DNA of 53,435 nt, taken from the NCBI GenBank assembly GCA_018064845.1, contig JAGHUK010000005.1, positions 1 to 53,435 of the forward strand. Direction: 5' to 3'. Within the stretch, counting starts at the first letter, position 1. The number at the start of each line of letters is the position of its first letter. Positions 35,887 through 43,340 of this stretch are shown here, piece after piece. A model generated the notes under the pieces. It searched no databases. It was not told the origin of the DNA and saw only the letters and a list, made by a program, of their open reading frames with translations. Made by a program: the position numbers and the translations under genes. The stretch is from Candidatus Hennigella equi. Lineage in GTDB: Bacteria; Bacillota_I; Bacilli_A; Mycoplasmatales; Mycoplasmoidaceae.

Positions 35887-35912
35887 AAAAAAGAGGTTGA
35901 ACCTCTTTTTAT
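35886..35912. terminator. Bidirectional terminator between convergent genes
   Basis: AAAAAGAGGT and ACCTCTTTTT pair around a three-base loop. It lies between the end of the membrane protein gene (plus) and the end of the NrdD glycyl-radical fragment gene (minus). Confidence 0.8.
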
Positions 35913-36097
35913 TTTACGTAGTTAGCTTCGTGATCGTTGTTGTGATCCACTCTTTGAGATCTTTCATCAACCTTCGATTGACAGAATCTTTCATCAAATG
36001 ATAGATAGCCAGTAATACGACTAATTTGACAGATATGAGTTGATCCACAAACCGGACATTTAGTTTCGCCTGGACGTAAATATGTTACTTTTCCCAT
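35909..36097 (-). CDS. Detached C-terminal zinc / glycyl-radical domain of NrdD
   Basis: 62 residues. C14-x2-C17 in K-C-P-V-C-G-S is the second half of the NrdD four-Cys zinc site, and S-R-I-T-G-Y-L-S places the radical glycine at G30, followed by a degraded but recognisable tail. This is the last part of a class III ribonucleotide reductase, which is normally joined to the catalytic barrel. Here the large NrdD gene (36637-38580) stops right after its first Cys pair. The fragment has its own ATG and Shine-Dalgarno (TAGGAGT), 31 bases after nrdG, so it looks like a working separate gene rather than debris. Confidence 0.85.
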   Translation of the reverse strand: MGKVTYLRPGETKCPVCGSTHICQISRITGYLSFDERFCQSKVDERSQRVDHNNDHEANYVK

Positions 36098-36128
36098 AAT
36101 ATAAGACTCCTATAATTTCATTATATGT

Positions 36129-36635
36129 TTATTTGTAATCTTTGTTAAGAATTACCTTATTTTGCTTTAATGATTCTTGTACAAGAATGATTCTTTGATT
36201 CTTTGAACCTCGTCATTCAATGTTTTCATCCATTAGTTCTTTAATGAATGGTCCATCGACAAGAACATCAATGTTGGACAACAATTGTTTAATATATGTA
36301 TTGGTCTTAGACAATTCTATTAGTTGTTCTCAGGTGTAACCTGTGTAAGACCAAATATTAATATTGTGTTCTTTTAATTTCTTAGCAATGTAAGCAAATG
36401 GTTCTGGTTGGTCGAAGGGATCTCCACCACTAAAGGTTACCCCAGCTAAGTAGGAAGCATCGATTGTTTTTTGTATTTCTTCATCACAATCAATCAATGC
36501 TCCACCCTTAAAGTCTCACGTGTGCTTATTAAAGCAATCTGGGCACCCGTGGCTACACCCTTGGCTAAAGAAGACTCTTCTTAAACCGGGACCATTAGCA
36601 TTAGATTCTAAGATACTTGCTAATCGTATTTGCAT
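36129..36635 (-). CDS. nrdG: Anaerobic ribonucleotide reductase activating protein
   Basis: Radical SAM enzyme that makes the glycyl radical on NrdD. 168 residues. The [4Fe-4S] site is C27-x3-C31-x2-C34 (GCSHGCPDC) and the SAM-binding T-F-S-G-G-D-P-F is at about 64-71. The ATG is one base after the stop of the large NrdD gene (TAA-T-ATG), with no Shine-Dalgarno, suggesting translational coupling. TGA is read as Trp three times. Unusually, it sits between the two pieces of its own substrate. Confidence 0.93.
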
Positions 36636-36636
36636 A

Positions 36637-38580
36637 TTATCTTGATTTGCAATCCAAACAGTATCTAATGTGGAAGTTTACACCAATATAGTTAATGTTT
36701 GTTCTTGAGTAAGCATACATTACTACTCTCATGATGTCATCTGGCGTTGGGTAGTTGTCAAATTCTACGTAAGAGATGTGACCACCATTACATAATTCAT
36801 GATAAGGTGCTTCAATAGTTAATTTTTCTGCCACACTAATTGCATAATCTACAGGAACGTGGAATGAGTTAGTGTAGTATCCTTTAGTTGTAACTCAAGG
36901 AATTTTTCCAAATTCTTTTTCATCTAATGGGAAGAATTTACCACTTAAACCTTCAGCTGGTGTTGCATAACAAGCGAAGTTAAGTTTATATTTTTGTTTA
37001 AACTTATCACAGTTTTCTCTAATACGTTTAACAATTTGGTAACCCAATTCTTGTGCATCTTTACTTTCACCGTGGTGTTTACCAATCAATAGTTTCAATG
37101 TTTCAGCTAAACCGATGAAACCAATACCCCACGTACCGTGTTTCAATACTGGTTCAATTGAATCATTTTTATCTAATCCTTCAGATCCAACAATTAAACC
37201 TTCACCACAAACAAATGGCATATCTTTAACTTTAAGTTTCTTTAAAGTTTCATATCTGTGCATTAATTGAAGTCTTACTTCTTCACACAATTCGTCTAAA
37301 GATTTAAAGAATACTTCAATGTTCTTGTTAGCTTTAATAGCTAGTCTTGGTAAGTTCATTGTACAAGGAGCGATGTTTCCACGACCTTCTACACATGGTT
37401 TACCATTAATATCAGATAGCAAGTATGTACGGCAACCCATTGTTGCAGGCATAACGCCTTTGTCATAATATTCCTTATTGAATGTAGCATCAATGTTCAT
37501 GAATGTTGGATTCATTCTCTTGCTCGCTACTTTACATGCTAATCTAAATAAGTAGAAGTATGGGTCTTTAGGGTTTCTGTTAACACCTTCTTTAACTCTA
37601 AAGATGATGTTAGGGAAGATTGGTTGTTCGCCGCAACCTAATCCTTTTTCATATTCTTGTAAGAAACATTCACACACTAGTGCAGCATCTTTACTTTCTG
37701 GTAATCCAATGTTGATAGAACTAAATGGAACTTGGCTTCCAGCTCTAGAGTGAAGTGTGTTAAGGTTGTAAACTACACCTTGCATTGCTTGGCAAACTCT
37801 ACGTTTTAGAATTTTGTTAACAACTTCATCATTCTTTCAGTCACCGCCTGTAGCTTTGATATCGGCGATGATTTTTCTACGTGTATTTGGAATAGTGATA
37901 GCAATATCATTATCAAAGTTAGGGTGTGATTGTCCACCAAACATATCGTTTTGACTTGCTTGTAGAGCAATACATAAAATTGCTCCAGCAGTTTCAATGG
38001 TTGTTGGGGGGTTAATAGTACCGTAACCAGTATTAAATCCTTTTTCAAGCAATCTTCTTGTTGGCAAGTGTAGACAGTTTGTTGTTAAGTTGTAACTATC
38101 TAAGTCGTGAATATAGTAGTCACCAACTTCATGGTGAGTAGCCATGTCTCTTGGCAAATGCTTTAAAAGCATGTGTCATTTGTTAGATTCAGAAGCAATT
38201 CTCAATAGCTTTGCTGAGAAGTTATTTCCTACGTTAGCATTATCTCTATCTGTTTCAATACCAATTTTGTAGATTGTGTTCATTAATCTACTTCCACGTT
38301 CACGCACTTTGTTACGTTGAACACGGTATGATTGATATTTTTTAGCTAAAGCTGTGTGGCCGTATTTTCTTAAGGTTGCAACAACCATGTCTTGAATTTC
38401 TTCAACTTCTACTGCATCTTTACCAGCTTTTTCAATTTGATTAACAACTTCGTCAGATACTTTAGTTAAATCGCCTTCTGCTAAAGCAATGTTACTTGCT
38501 ACAGCGGCAGCAATAATAGCATCATGTATCTTACTTGAATTGAATTTGACTTCACGTCCATCTCTTTTAATTACTTTCAT
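36637..38580 (-). CDS. nrdD: Anaerobic ribonucleoside-triphosphate reductase, large piece lacking the radical domain
   Basis: Class III ribonucleotide reductase, reduces NTPs to dNTPs without oxygen. 647 residues. An ATP-cone fills about 1-95 (MKVIKRDGREVKFNSSKIHDAI). The catalytic barrel has N-C169 in YNLTTNCLHLP and the thiyl Cys C406 in GNIAPCTMNLPRLA. It ends ...NFHIRYCLDCKSR then TAA: C641-x2-C644 is the first half of the zinc site, and the second half plus the radical Gly are on a separate gene (35909-36097). Adding 62 residues restores a full-length enzyme of about 709. Several TGA are Trp. It follows pth by one base. Confidence 0.93.
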
Positions 38581-38581
38581 A

Positions 38582-39148
38582 CTATTTACTTCCTTGATTT
38601 ACTTTACTTATTGCGATATTGATTGGTGCACATAAACTTAGTTTAACGAATTCTATTGCTTTGCTAATTGGGTATTGTAGTGCATCTAATTCTTGTTTGG
38701 TCATTTTGCCCAACACATGGTCTATCACCGTGGCGTGTTGTGGGTGACCAATCCCAATTTTGAATCTTACAAACTTATCAGATCCTAGTTTAGCAATAAT
38801 GTCTTTGATTCCATTATGGCCACCAGCAGACCCAGAGGTTCTTACTCTAAATTTGCCTGGTTCTAGGTCAAGATCGTCATGAATAACAATGATATCTTCA
38901 GGTTTGATCTTATAAAACTTGGCAACCTGACCTACACAATTACCTGAAAGGTTCATTAATGTTGTTGGTTTAATAAACATTACCTTTTGGTCATTGATAG
39001 TAGCCACAGTATAATCGCCGTCAAAACTATTCGATTCTATCTTAAGGCCTAAGTCTTTTAAGATTGCATCTAAGGTTATAAAACCTACATTATGACGGGA
39101 GTTTGAATATGGCTTGCCCACGTTACCAAGCCCTACCACGAGTTTCAT
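38582..39148 (-). CDS. pth: Peptidyl-tRNA hydrolase
   Basis: Recycles peptidyl-tRNA dropped from ribosomes. 188 residues. K-L-V-V-G-L-G-N-V-G-K-P-Y-S-N-S-R-H-N-V-G-F contains the catalytic His (H20 region) and HDDLDLEPGKFRV plus GSAGGHNG are further active-site blocks. A minus-strand TATAAT is at 39158-39163, nine bases before the ATG, giving a very short leader. First gene of the unit that contains nrdD and nrdG. Confidence 0.95.
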   Translation of the reverse strand: MKLVVGLGNVGKPYSNSRHNVGFITLDAILKDLGLKIESNSFDGDYTVATINDQKVMFIKPTTLMNLSGNCVGQVAKFYKIKPEDIIVIHDDLDLEPGKFRVRTSGSAGGHNGIKDIIAKLGSDKFVRFKIGIGHPQHATVIDHVLGKMTKQELDALQYPISKAIEFVKLSLCAPINIAISKVNQGSK

Positions 39149-39281: not shown

Positions 39282-41882
39282 TTATTCTGCTAATAGTTGA
39301 CGTAATCAACGGAAGATTTCTCATCCATCTTCGCCCAATGAAGCAAAGTCATCTGCATGAGTTGCTAAATATTCTTGAATGTAGTCAAAACGAGAAAGTT
39401 TTAGGTGATCATATTCACTTAGAGGGAATCTGTCGCCTCTTACATATGACGCTTGACTCTTTTGAAGACGACGTTTAGTTACTTCTTTTACTTTATCAGC
39501 TGCAACTTTATCACCAGCTTTAGCTTTTTGTATATTCTTTTGGTGTTCTCTTTCCGCTTTAATTTCAGCATCAGATTTAGCCAACAAAGTTGTTTCAATG
39601 ATGTTAAGAACAAGTAATCCAACATCCATTAGAATATCTGTTATGAAATATTCACCACCTGGGTCAAACTTGTTAAATGTTGGGTCAAACTTTTCAGGTA
39701 AAATTTCAAGTCTTTCAACATCTTTTAAGAATTCCTTGCAGTCATCGGTTTCAGCAAAGAATTGGTAATATGCTAATTTTGTTCTTGCAAGCTCAAAGTC
39801 TATTTTTTCGAATTTAATATATTTGCTGTCGAACTCTTTTTGGTCGTATTTACCATCATCATCGATATCTACATATAGTTGTTCATCTGCAGCAAATTGT
39901 TTAGCAAATTTGTCACCATATTTTGATTTAGATAACTTATCACATTGATCTTCTCAATGAAGCAATGGTTTAAAGTGATGTTTAGTGTAAATTGCGATAG
40001 TTGCACCACCAAGAGCAAGACCAGCTAATGTAACTGCCAATCCAATAGCAGATCTACCCTTGCTTGGATTTAGTGGAGTTCATAATTGGTAAATGAATGT
40101 AGCTAGATAGCTAAGTTGAGTGGCTTCATCTAAACATTTAGCACCAAGAATGATACCAGATGTTAGTTTCATTTCATCAAATCCATGATCAATATAAGTC
40201 TTTATAAAACCTTTAGCAGTTTTAAAAGCTAAACTTGAATTGTAGAAGAATTCTTTAGTGATTGGGAAATCGTGACAATCGAAATTTTCTGGAATATCAT
40301 AACGACATGCTTGTCAAGGTTTGTTGAAAGTTTCGTTGTATGTAACAAACAATTTGTTTTTAACTACGTTTTTACCTTCATTTGCTCCATTTTTCTTTAG
40401 AACAGGGTTAGAAACAATTTCAACATTTGATTGAACATCCATGTAAGTAACGAATTTTTCACCTAAAGTGTATCCACTTTCGCTACCTTGTTCTTTTTTA
40501 GCGCCGGCAGAGTCTATGAATTCTTGGATTGTTTTGTAGTTTTGTCCACCATCTTCAGACATTAATAGTCCGGCTTTAGCTAATGAAGACATATGGATTT
40601 CTCCGGTTTTTTCGCCAATACCAATACCATCAAAGAATGGTTCATAAGCACACTTGCTTGTGTCGTAGTCTTCAGTAACATTTCATTTAAATGTTATGTT
40701 TTCAGCTTTATTCTTGTCGAAATAAACGCTTTGGATGTCAGCGTCTTCAGCTGCTGGTTCAACATATGCGTCGTAATCAGTGATTACTGGTTGCATATCA
40801 TCCAAGATTTCACTAATAGGTTTAGATTCATCAATAGTGTTGCTAACAACATCTTTGCTCATTTTGTATAAGTGAGCAGTAGCTTCTTTAATAAGTTGTG
40901 GTTTGTTTTTGTAAATGTCAGCTTTAACTGCCGTTCAGTCAATACTTATACTACGAGCATTAGAGTATTGATCTTGGTTAATAGATTTAAGAATAGGGAT
41001 AATTACATATTCAGGAACCATGTGGAAAGGATCAAAAACGTTGTCAACAGTTCCAGTTTCATTGTTGTGAATATTAAAGATTCTGCCCATGTAGCTAGAA
41101 ATATCAGCTCCAGGACGGAAGTTAGGATCTTGCATTAGAACATTTAATCTGTTATCGCTGTAGTAGTATGGTTTTCCCGGTTTAGCTTGAATGTATTCAA
41201 ATGAGTATTGGTGTAAGAACTCATTCAACTTTTCAATACCAGCCAATTTAGCGATTTCAGCGTTTGTGCTGTCGAATAATTGGAATAGTTTTGTTCTAGC
41301 AACTTCAATTGCTCCTAATGGGTCGTTTTCTCTATAACCTTGAGCTTCTAGTTTAGCTTTAAGTTGAGTGAAACGACTTGTTGCATCAGCTAAAATTTGT
41401 GTTTGCAAATATGGATCAATATCTACGTGTTGCATATACAAACCAAAAGATTGTTTGAAACCATTAAACATAGTATCAAGATCACTTCAAGAAGCACGAG
41501 TCACTCTCTTGATGTGTAGATTATATGCACGGTTAGCAAAATTTTTCAAACCAGTAGTTAAGGCTGTATAGTTAATATTAGTGTTACCTTTAACGCTGTA
41601 GGTATCAAAGAATTGCATTTGGTTTGAAAATGTATTTAATCTAGCATTAACAACCTCAGGATCTGTGATACCGTCTTGTTTTAACTTATTACGATAAGCA
41701 CGATCAAGGTCCTTTCTCATATTTTGGTATGTTATTTCATCAACACCATACTTCTTATCCATTCAGTCTTCGTTAGCATGTTTGCCTGTTTTAGAACATG
41801 AAGAAAGAGCAGGAACGCAAACAGCACTAACTGTTGCCATTCCGGCAAGTGTAGATAACAATATTTTGTGATTCTTTTTCAT
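39282..41882 (-). CDS. Large lipoprotein of unknown function (866 residues)
   Basis: Lipoprotein signal peptide ending ALSSC (Cys about residue 29), then a long, mostly helical extracellular part. Two hydrophobic stretches occur late: about 610-635 (SAIGLAVTLAGLALGGATIAIY) and about 750-770 (DVGLLVLNIIETTLLA); the first is long enough to be a membrane helix, so the C-terminal 230 residues may be inside or membrane-embedded. No known domain is recognised and it has none of the leucine-rich repeats of its neighbours. Trp are TGA and the ORF is unbroken over 2.6 kb when read so. A strong Shine-Dalgarno (AAGGGGTG) and a TATAAT at 41902-41907 precede it, so it is transcribed alone. Confidence 0.85.
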
Positions 41883-41933
41883 AATTCACCCCTTCACTCG
41901 TATTATATATATAAATATTAAGTATTAATACAT

Positions 41934-41972
41934 AAAAAAAATAATATTTGTATGAAATACAAAATATTATTC
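41934..41972 (-). terminator. Terminator after the 457-residue LRR lipoprotein
   Basis: A long AT-rich hairpin (AATAATATTT...GTAT against ATAC..AAATATTATT, one bulged base) is followed on the minus strand by eight T. Confidence 0.65.
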
Positions 41973-43340
41973 TTTAATTTCTGGTGGTTTTGGACCGGGG
42001 ATTATTTGCCATTTACCCTGTTCTATTTCATCATAACTGAACCCTATTCTTTGAAGAAAATCAAGTCAACCTTCATATATTAATTCTGAATAAGGCAAGA
42101 TAATTTGACCATTAGATGGTTTACCTGCAAAGGCATCTGTGCAGTCGGGTCCTAAATCCGGAATTGAATCTGGGTCTCATTGTGAAAAGTCAACAATATG
42201 CAGATTATTCATGTCGCCAAAGCTCATATAGTTGATATGTTCCATAGATCTAGGAATAACAACTTTTCCAAACGGTGTTCCGTCAAAAGCACGATCGCCA
42301 ACCTCTACCACTTTGTGTTGTGGTTCTCACAAAGCATGTTCAAGAGAGCGACATTCTAGAAAAGCAGCAGAAGGAATCTTTTTTAGTATAAGTATTTTTT
42401 CCTCTTGTTTTTCTACACTGACAAATGTTAATTCTTCAGTATGTGGACCTAGATCTCTTAAATATGTGCAACCAGAGAAACAAGCTTCAGAAAGTTGTAT
42501 TTGTTTTGCACAAGGTAAATAGACATTTTCCAAGTTTGAACAACTAGCTAAACAGTTTTTACCAAAGATGTAAAAATTATCATGAAAAGTGATTTTTTCT
42601 AAGGATCAACATGCAAAGAAAGCACCCTCTTGTAATTCAACAAACTCAGGAGAAAAACTAAAGCAAACATTTACAAGCGCTGTACATCCTGAGAAGGCAT
42701 ATTTTCCTATATTTACTAGAGCTGGACCGAACACCAATGAATAAGTAAGTTCTTCGTCACCTAGACGACAATTTTCAAATGCATTATCACCAATAGAAAT
42801 GATTGATTTTGTTCAATTTGGGTCTAGAATATCACCTTGTCTTACATATATCTCAGACAAACTAATACATTCAGCAAAAGCATTGTAACCAACGTGTTTT
42901 GGGTATTGGTGGAAGATAACTTTTCTTAGGTATGCAGCATTGAAAAAGCATTGATCAGGAACAAAATCCATGAAGTCATTTAACTCAATAGATCCTGTTA
43001 AATTGTAGTTTTCAAAAAAGCATTCTTCTTGCAAAATAACCTTGTATTTTTCGTTGTTGAAAAGCACATAATTTGGTATGACTAAATCTTGAGCAATAAG
43101 ATTTTCACTATTCTTATAAACTATCTCTTTTTCGGTTGGATAAATATCATAATCACGCATTGGCGCAAAGTGGCCTTGTTCTCTACCTTGTCAATCACTT
43201 CCATCAACGTTTCTAAGTACATTTGTTGGTGGTTCTGGATCGACATGACCTTGACAACTATATGCACAAAAACCTGCAGGAATTGTTCAACAACTTACTG
43301 CAATCGGTGCTAAAGCTTTTATCAACTTTTTGCTTCTCAT
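41967..43340 (-). CDS. BspA-like leucine-rich-repeat lipoprotein
   Basis: 457 residues. The N-terminal signal ends with a Cys in F-C-A-Y-S-C (lipobox A-Y-S-C). From about 100 onward there are repeated LRR_5-type units: phrases such as IGDNAFENCR, IGKYAFSGCTALVNV, LSEACFSGCTYL and VGDRAFDGTPF each end in A/C-F-x-x-C/G, the hallmark of BspA-like surface proteins that bind host matrix proteins or other bacteria. It begins one base after the upstream lipoprotein gene ends, with no Shine-Dalgarno. Trp often TGA. Confidence 0.88.

Follow-up and report, generated by a model that had tools for sequence, protein, structure and literature searches.

The window analysed here is a 53,435-nucleotide stretch of contig JAGHUK010000005.1 from Candidatus Hennigella equi (assembly GCA_018064845.1, 636 kb, 82% complete), which was read with genetic code 4 (TGA = Trp). 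Its minus strand contains, in this order, pth, a gene for the large chain of a class III ribonucleotide reductase (RNR), NrdD, the activase gene nrdG and a gene of 62 codons, followed by a hairpin (Table 1). The large open reading frame (ORF) has three in-frame TGA codons and a C-terminus reading ...NFHIRYC641LDC644KSR before its TAA stop, and only one base (T, 36636) separates this stop from the ATG of nrdG. The 62-residue ORF starts 31 nt past the nrdG stop behind an AGGAG sequence, with a product that begins MGKVTYLRPGETKC14PVC17GSTHICQISRITG30YLSFDERFC. A preliminary description of this DNA, made from its letters alone, had proposed that the reductase is divided at its zinc site with nrdG between the pieces, and it placed the break after C641-x2-C644, nrdG, the Shine-Dalgarno (SD) sequence, C14-x2-C17 and Gly30 correctly.

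Table 1. Features of the reductase locus and its surroundings in the window
Feature	Position	Strand	Evidence
NrdD large chain, 647 aa, code 4	36637..38580	-	Pfam ATP-cone and NRDD 1-515/562
C641-x2-C644, first half of zinc site, then KSR and TAA	36649..36660	-	aligned to T4 and P. copri
nrdG, radical S-adenosylmethionine (SAM) activase, 168 aa	36129..36635	-	TIGR02491 NrdG, 147 bits (cut-off 126)
Small chain, 62 aa, second half of zinc site and glycyl radical domain (GRD)	35909..36097	-	Pfam NRDD 519-562, E 6.8e-8
C14-x2-C17, second half of zinc site	36047..36058	-	invariant in alignment A1
Gly30 (RITGY), predicted radical residue	36008..36010	-	aligned to Gly711 of P. copri NrdD; invariant in A1
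Shine-Dalgarno AGGAG of small gene	36107..36111	-	SD-like motif frequency across small genes
Promoter-like TTAACA-17-TATAAT at end of nrdG	36120..36148	-	11/12 consensus matches, best of the region
Hairpin with T-runs on both sides, just 3' of small gene; possible shared terminator	35888..35910	.
pth (peptidyl-tRNA hydrolase), immediately upstream of nrdD; operon probably shared, outside the enzyme	38582..39148	-	PF01195
Two ORFs, lipoprotein-like and BspA-type surface protein	39282-41897, 41967-43340	-

Assignment of the two chains

The large chain is a class III RNR by sequence, with matches to NRDD (533.8 bits), the ATP-cone (76 bits) and NF005497 (924.5 bits; cut-off 764). It holds the ATP-cone, the barrel, C169, the radical C383 and N402, and is without a GRD. 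The top Foldseek matches of its AlphaFold2 model (predicted local distance difference test, pLDDT, 81; predicted template modelling score, pTM, 0.77) are all NrdD, with entries for the P. copri enzyme scoring best, including deoxyadenosine triphosphate (dATP) forms that have a disordered radical domain, and with T4 NrdD also present. Identity to P. copri NrdD is about 36%, and C383 and N402, both invariant in alignment A4, align with its Cys416 and Asn435. The end of the large chain falls on Cys684/Cys687 of the deposited P. copri chain (8p23), or 680/683 in the numbering of the paper, which equals the deposited numbering minus 4 as checked on Cys416, Asn435 and Gly711 (PMC11226230). The small chain matches Cys695, Cys698 and Gly711 of the same enzyme, and its NRDD match exceeds the curated Pfam cut-off. 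A chance ORF was considered for the 62-residue gene and ruled out by this Pfam match together with conservation across genomes.

The last Cys pair of the large chain aligns with C543/C546 of T4 NrdD. In T4 and E. coli NrdD a CxxCx14CxxC motif binds one zinc ion, as the preliminary description had also stated, and this zinc ribbon is placed after the last strand of the barrel and ahead of the glycyl loop (PMC4493059). Thus, the cut separates the two pairs of ligands that share one zinc site. Zinc ribbon and radical glycine do not reside together with the barrel in any of the 41 genomes that have the large chain, as each chain carries one Cys pair and the glycine is on the small one. The NrdG activase partner of class III RNRs is encoded by the adjoining gene. 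On sequence, fold and partner the enzyme is a class III RNR, one that departs from the family in its single-chain feature, and not a GrcA. Additionally, the small protein was considered as the GrcA of pyruvate formate-lyase (PFL), which was rejected as it matches NRDD and not Gly_radical (PF01228); in the window genome (G000) PF01228 matches only the intact PFL, a separate gene (L481). Pfam, NCBIfam and PHROGs contain no dedicated family for the small proteins, which are matched only by C-terminal parts of full-length NrdD models.

Conservation of the divided reductase among relatives

Relatives were surveyed for NRDD in 298 genomes of the order and counted at the family level in 95 genomes, with g1 denoting the genus of the window and g7 its main sister genus. 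NRDD matches end at about position 516-535 throughout g1 and g7, whereas those of family f5 extend to 562. Each of the 41 large chains ends in YCxxC plus a tail of 2-40 unconserved residues, while all 42 stand-alone small genes have their own ATG and encode chains of about 59-75 residues with CPxC and R[IV]TGY. Truncated NrdD and the stand-alone small gene occur together in 41/41 genomes, one further genome (G200) has the small gene without the large one, and neither is present in 53 of the 95 family genomes; these counts come from related genomes, where a Fisher p-value is not readable as a probability. Both genes are under purifying selection, with a ratio of nonsynonymous to synonymous substitution rates (dN/dS) of 0.02-0.16 for the small gene in unsaturated pairs, similar values for the large gene, and 0.12-0.13 for the small gene of the window against its two nearest full-clade relatives. 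The split is a conserved trait of the clade and not a local accident. Its recurrence in independent assemblies rules out an assembly error and speaks against a resequencing that would join the large piece to a C-terminal domain.

The three-gene order of the window, which the preliminary description had proposed to look for in close relatives, is found in part of them. The large gene, nrdG and the small gene lie within 350 nt of one another in 16/41 genomes and follow the same order at distances of 1.1-2.4 kb in 5, but the order is large-small-nrdG in the two g11 genomes and small-large in G146. While nrdG adjoins the large gene in most loci, its position between the two parts is a feature of this locus, and this variation in order and distance bears out the earlier statement that a simple frameshift is no explanation. 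An SD-like motif precedes 28/42 small genes as compared to 8% of random sites. One congener locus is from goat reticulum, and several g7-like loci are from rumen ('Ureaplasma sp. RUG...') and from other uncultured Mycoplasmataceae metagenome-assembled genomes.

A full-length NrdD elsewhere in the genome had been named beforehand as a finding that would speak against a two-chain enzyme. No other NrdD was found in the window assembly, and no full-length NrdD in five congeners. Class I/II RNR (PF02867) is absent from 42/42 g1 and g7 genomes and present in 46/53 of the others, so that the split NrdD is the sole RNR found in most g1 and g7 genomes; G152 and G188 additionally hold a full-length NrdD of another type. 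This lineage, a group of uncultured gut mycoplasmas, seems to depend on the split NrdD for DNA building blocks. For the related Ca. Mycoplasma girerdii, NrdD is reported to have the highest expression of all genes (PMC10557491).

Two further genes lie upstream of the RNR operon in the window, one an 871-residue lipoprotein-like ORF with no Pfam family and the other encoding a BspA-type leucine-rich repeat surface protein.

A probable reductase of two obligate chains

We consider it probable, at roughly 0.84, that these genes encode a working class III RNR of two obligate chains. This reading, which agrees with the preliminary description, is strongly supported by the 41/41 co-occurrence, by purifying selection on both genes and by the absence of class I/II RNR. 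The large chain would supply the barrel, the ATP-cone, the radical Cys383 and two of the four zinc ligands; the other two ligands would come from the small chain, together with the radical glycine. The two would meet by closing one four-Cys zinc ribbon, which would bring the small chain's glycyl loop into the barrel of the large chain. NrdG would then install the radical on the small chain, from where it would pass to Cys383 and back in every turnover. Destruction of the radical by oxygen would cleave the small chain alone, and a fresh copy could dock in its place. We infer the shared zinc site and the loop insertion from NrdD structures; for the putative zinc clamp proposed earlier, the support is positional, with one Cys pair per chain in all 41 genomes. 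The small chain appears obligatory because the large chain never carries a radical domain of its own, and the enzyme would behave as an obligate version of a spare-part system.

Several observations weigh against this two-chain enzyme. In 17/41 genomes the small gene lies on a different contig or outside the fetched range, and co-regulation is therefore not general. As the split-clade genomes are all metagenome drafts, and as no RNR of any kind was seen in two g7 genomes, the need for the split RNR is something we infer. Evidence for separate transcription is also weak, as promoter-like sites (score of at least 10) precede 11/42 small genes, versus 2.7% of random windows and 6.7% of shuffles, and also precede 5/39 large genes, and as the total of hits in the region of the window site is near the shuffle level. 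An own promoter could give the small gene a separate transcript, which these sites no more than suggest; they were not used as proof because their excess over shuffles is weaker and large genes have them too.

A separate observation concerns six small genes (G211, G275, G182, G209, G257 and G120) that have TATAAT about 6-7 nt before the ATG and no SD, which suggests leaderless transcripts.

Exchange, origin and alternatives

The weakest step of the proposed mechanism is the exchange of small chains in the cell, to which we give just short of an even chance. Two findings point towards exchange, namely a phage that has the small gene by itself and a parallel split of PFL in relatives. The 43-kb phage record IMGVR_UViG_3300001598_000013, which reads TGA as Trp and may be a fragment, has one small gene that is 80% identical to that of the window and no large chain, alongside terminase-, portal-, capsid-, DNA-polymerase- and queuosine-pathway-like ORFs (folE, queC, queD, queE) that were named by eye. 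Residue 39 of the small chain is Cys (ERFC) in the window and in the phage copy and Gly in other cellular copies, and this shared Cys39 hints at exchange between phage and host. In INPHARED there was no match to the small protein of the window, and a 95-residue type of stand-alone GRD matched only unannotated gut records. In many g7 genomes, as well as in G271 and G261, PFL comes in two parts, a chain of about 705-740 residues without the glycine and a GRD ORF of 80-106 residues, which are adjacent or on different contigs (loci L475-L494; G081, G155, G117, G131, G108, G143, G114, G194, G167, G134, G271, G261).

NrdD itself has also been divided elsewhere, with detached NrdD GRDs in other Bacilli and in many gut phages. 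In family f20 (Bacilli) the cut lies downstream of the zinc site, and the large gene is followed first by a GRD gene for 45-60 residues that lacks zinc Cys and then by nrdG, a split that is independent of that in the window clade. The C-terminus of the f20 large chains is a new tail with Cys residues (CCGR, NCGC and similar; L281, L282, L286-L291, L293). In f23 and f16 a GRD protein of 90-100 residues with its own N-domain stands beside full-length NrdD; stand-alone loci of this size were seen in f23, f16, f14 and f28 (L283-L285, L292, L431-L444), and we regard these proteins as candidates for a true NrdD spare part. Full-length NrdD coexists with such a protein in G392, G574 and G631, and in G320 the partner NrdD has lost its own GRD. 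Relatives of the 90-100 residue protein are encoded by 313 viral loci in IMG/VR, most without nrdD nearby. The 80 loci that were fetched (L351-L430) are all stand-alone ORFs, and in five (L392, L402, L403, L425, L427) the GRD directly follows an NrdD large ORF. The AlphaFold2 model of an 87-residue phage protein has a folded N-domain (pLDDT 73-82) and is uninformative on docking because its GRD is unstructured (45-48). From the parallels in PFL, f20, f23/f16 and phages, the detachable radical domain seems to have arisen several times. In the TGA = Trp phage (L182, L349, L461, L462) a reverse-transcriptase-like gene lies just upstream of its lone radical-domain gene.

In a tree of 76 rows the g1, g7 and g11 split enzymes form one group (Shimodaira-Hasegawa-like approximate likelihood ratio test, SH-aLRT, 89; not starred) beside full-length Clostridium NrdD, and the nearest outside relatives are full-length Clostridium genes with about 63% identity. 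This placement is consistent with a single transfer and a single split. A divergent NrdD, likewise cut between the Cys pairs, occurs in three g7 genomes (G146, G245, G257) and forms a long branch of unsure placement; past the glycyl motif, their stand-alone radical domain (L140, L296, L297) carries about 20 inserted residues. The g11 genomes have a TAA stop in the large gene and a new start for the small gene behind AAGGAG, an arrangement that resembles an early stage of the split.

A serious rival differs from a two-chain enzyme with replaceable small chains in the exchange step only. Neutral gene fission could have left two obligate chains that zinc holds as a pair for life, a frozen accident that we rate as quite possible, and yet as improbable rather than probable. 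The single origin with which the tree of g1, g7 and g11 is compatible fits this rival, as do a shared four-Cys zinc site that could hold the chains tightly and the state of g11, where just a stop and a new start break up the gene without displacing its parts. However, similar splits recur in PFL of relatives, in f20, where the small chain has no zinc, and in phages, and the lone phage small genes are sensible only if a free radical domain docks on the host enzyme.

The remaining alternatives fare far worse. Were the pieces joined into a single chain, whether by frameshifting, readthrough, trans-splicing or a split intein, there would be precedents in phages, which often have RNR genes that are split or interrupted, with introns or inteins (PMC3653736, PMC12363816). 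We regard such joining as highly unlikely here, as nrdG, kilobases or a contig break between the parts make ribosomal recoding impossible in most cases, the tail after C644 (KSR here, 2-40 unconserved residues elsewhere) is too short for intein halves, and the small genes have their own ATG and mostly an SD. No splicing element was noticed at the break with its short unconserved tails, although no dedicated intron or intein scan was made. It is similarly improbable that the small gene is a GrcA-like spare for a full-length NrdD elsewhere, with the truncated gene irrelevant; such coexistence seems real in the Bacilli G392, G574 and G631, but the truncated NrdD is the sole one found in the window genome and five congeners, and the second NrdD of a few g7 genomes is of another type. 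Least credible of all is a decaying nrdD pseudogene with the 62-residue ORF as a remnant since, readily as mollicutes lose genes and even though some family genomes are without RNR, the identical cut in 41 genomes, purifying selection, own start signals and the mostly missing other RNR argue against it.

The two-chain reductase resembles several known systems and differs from each. It shares the ATP-cone, barrel, Cys/Asn pair, Gly motif, zinc pairs and NrdG with the class III enzymes of T4, E. coli, P. copri and T. maritima, in which zinc ribbon and glycyl loop are on one chain, whereas here they come from two genes with the cut between the Cys pairs. To our knowledge, every characterised NrdD keeps the radical glycine on the catalytic chain. 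We found no earlier report of a cellular split NrdD in a search of open-access literature, with most subscription papers outside the search. YfiD/GrcA and T4 Y06I, the only spare parts validated so far, are likewise small stand-alone glycyl radical proteins that serve a larger chain and can be phage-borne (PMC8683613). However, YfiD/GrcA is a part of PFL and a back-up for a complete enzyme, while the small chain belongs to NrdD, is its sole radical domain and has a putative zinc joint. The earlier likening to GrcA is thus plausible as to a replaceable part, considering the separate genes, the phage copy and the split PFL, and fails as to a back-up, as the large chain has no radical domain. In Ca. 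Mycoplasma girerdii an 'autonomous glycyl radical cofactor' is among the most abundant transcripts (PMC5476646, PMC9239101); this stand-alone protein is annotated as a PFL replacement, whereas in genomes of the family that were read here PFL itself lacks the domain.

Aeromonas phage Aeh1 also builds an RNR large subunit from two genes, NrdA-a and NrdA-b, that work without splicing (PMC3653736), and as in Aeh1 we found two separately started, conserved ORFs, whose products would act together. The Aeh1 split concerns a class I enzyme of one phage, involves a homing endonuclease gene, and is neither at a metal or radical site nor a clade-wide cellular trait. The nrdD genes of Lactococcus phage 949, Clostridium phage c-st, Aeromonas phage phiAS4 and the Jug phages also comprise several ORFs, but these reflect introns, inteins or recent breaks at varied points, several of them with proven splicing, and not a fixed two-protein enzyme. 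We additionally observed phage nrdD in several ORFs at L189, L192, L194, L196-L198, L219, L222, L228, L249 and L261, where the breaks are probably introns or stop-codon recoding as in Jug phages. Two Clostridium nrdD genes (L090, L093) are interrupted by extra DNA in which neither an intron nor an intein was identified.

More broadly, detached, disposable glycyl-radical subunits of 50-95 residues may be a general strategy of anaerobes, in which NrdD several times, and PFL in relatives, would have shed the oxygen-fragile radical onto a cheap exchangeable protein, and which phages would carry to keep or take over host nucleotide reduction. We advance this view tentatively and think it somewhat likelier to be wrong than right. 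A radical part that is cut off inside a metal site throughout a clade can by itself be labelled, titrated, swapped or stripped of zinc. Replaceable radical parts have been suggested for glycyl radical enzymes beyond PFL (PMC8683613), and the split NrdD makes this suggestion directly testable. For annotation, it means that genes labelled 'autonomous glycyl radical cofactor' in mycoplasmas of this kind can code for an obligatory subunit and not a spare. Finally, the parallel splits in PFL, in f20 NrdD and among phage copies hint at a repeated evolutionary answer to oxygen damage.
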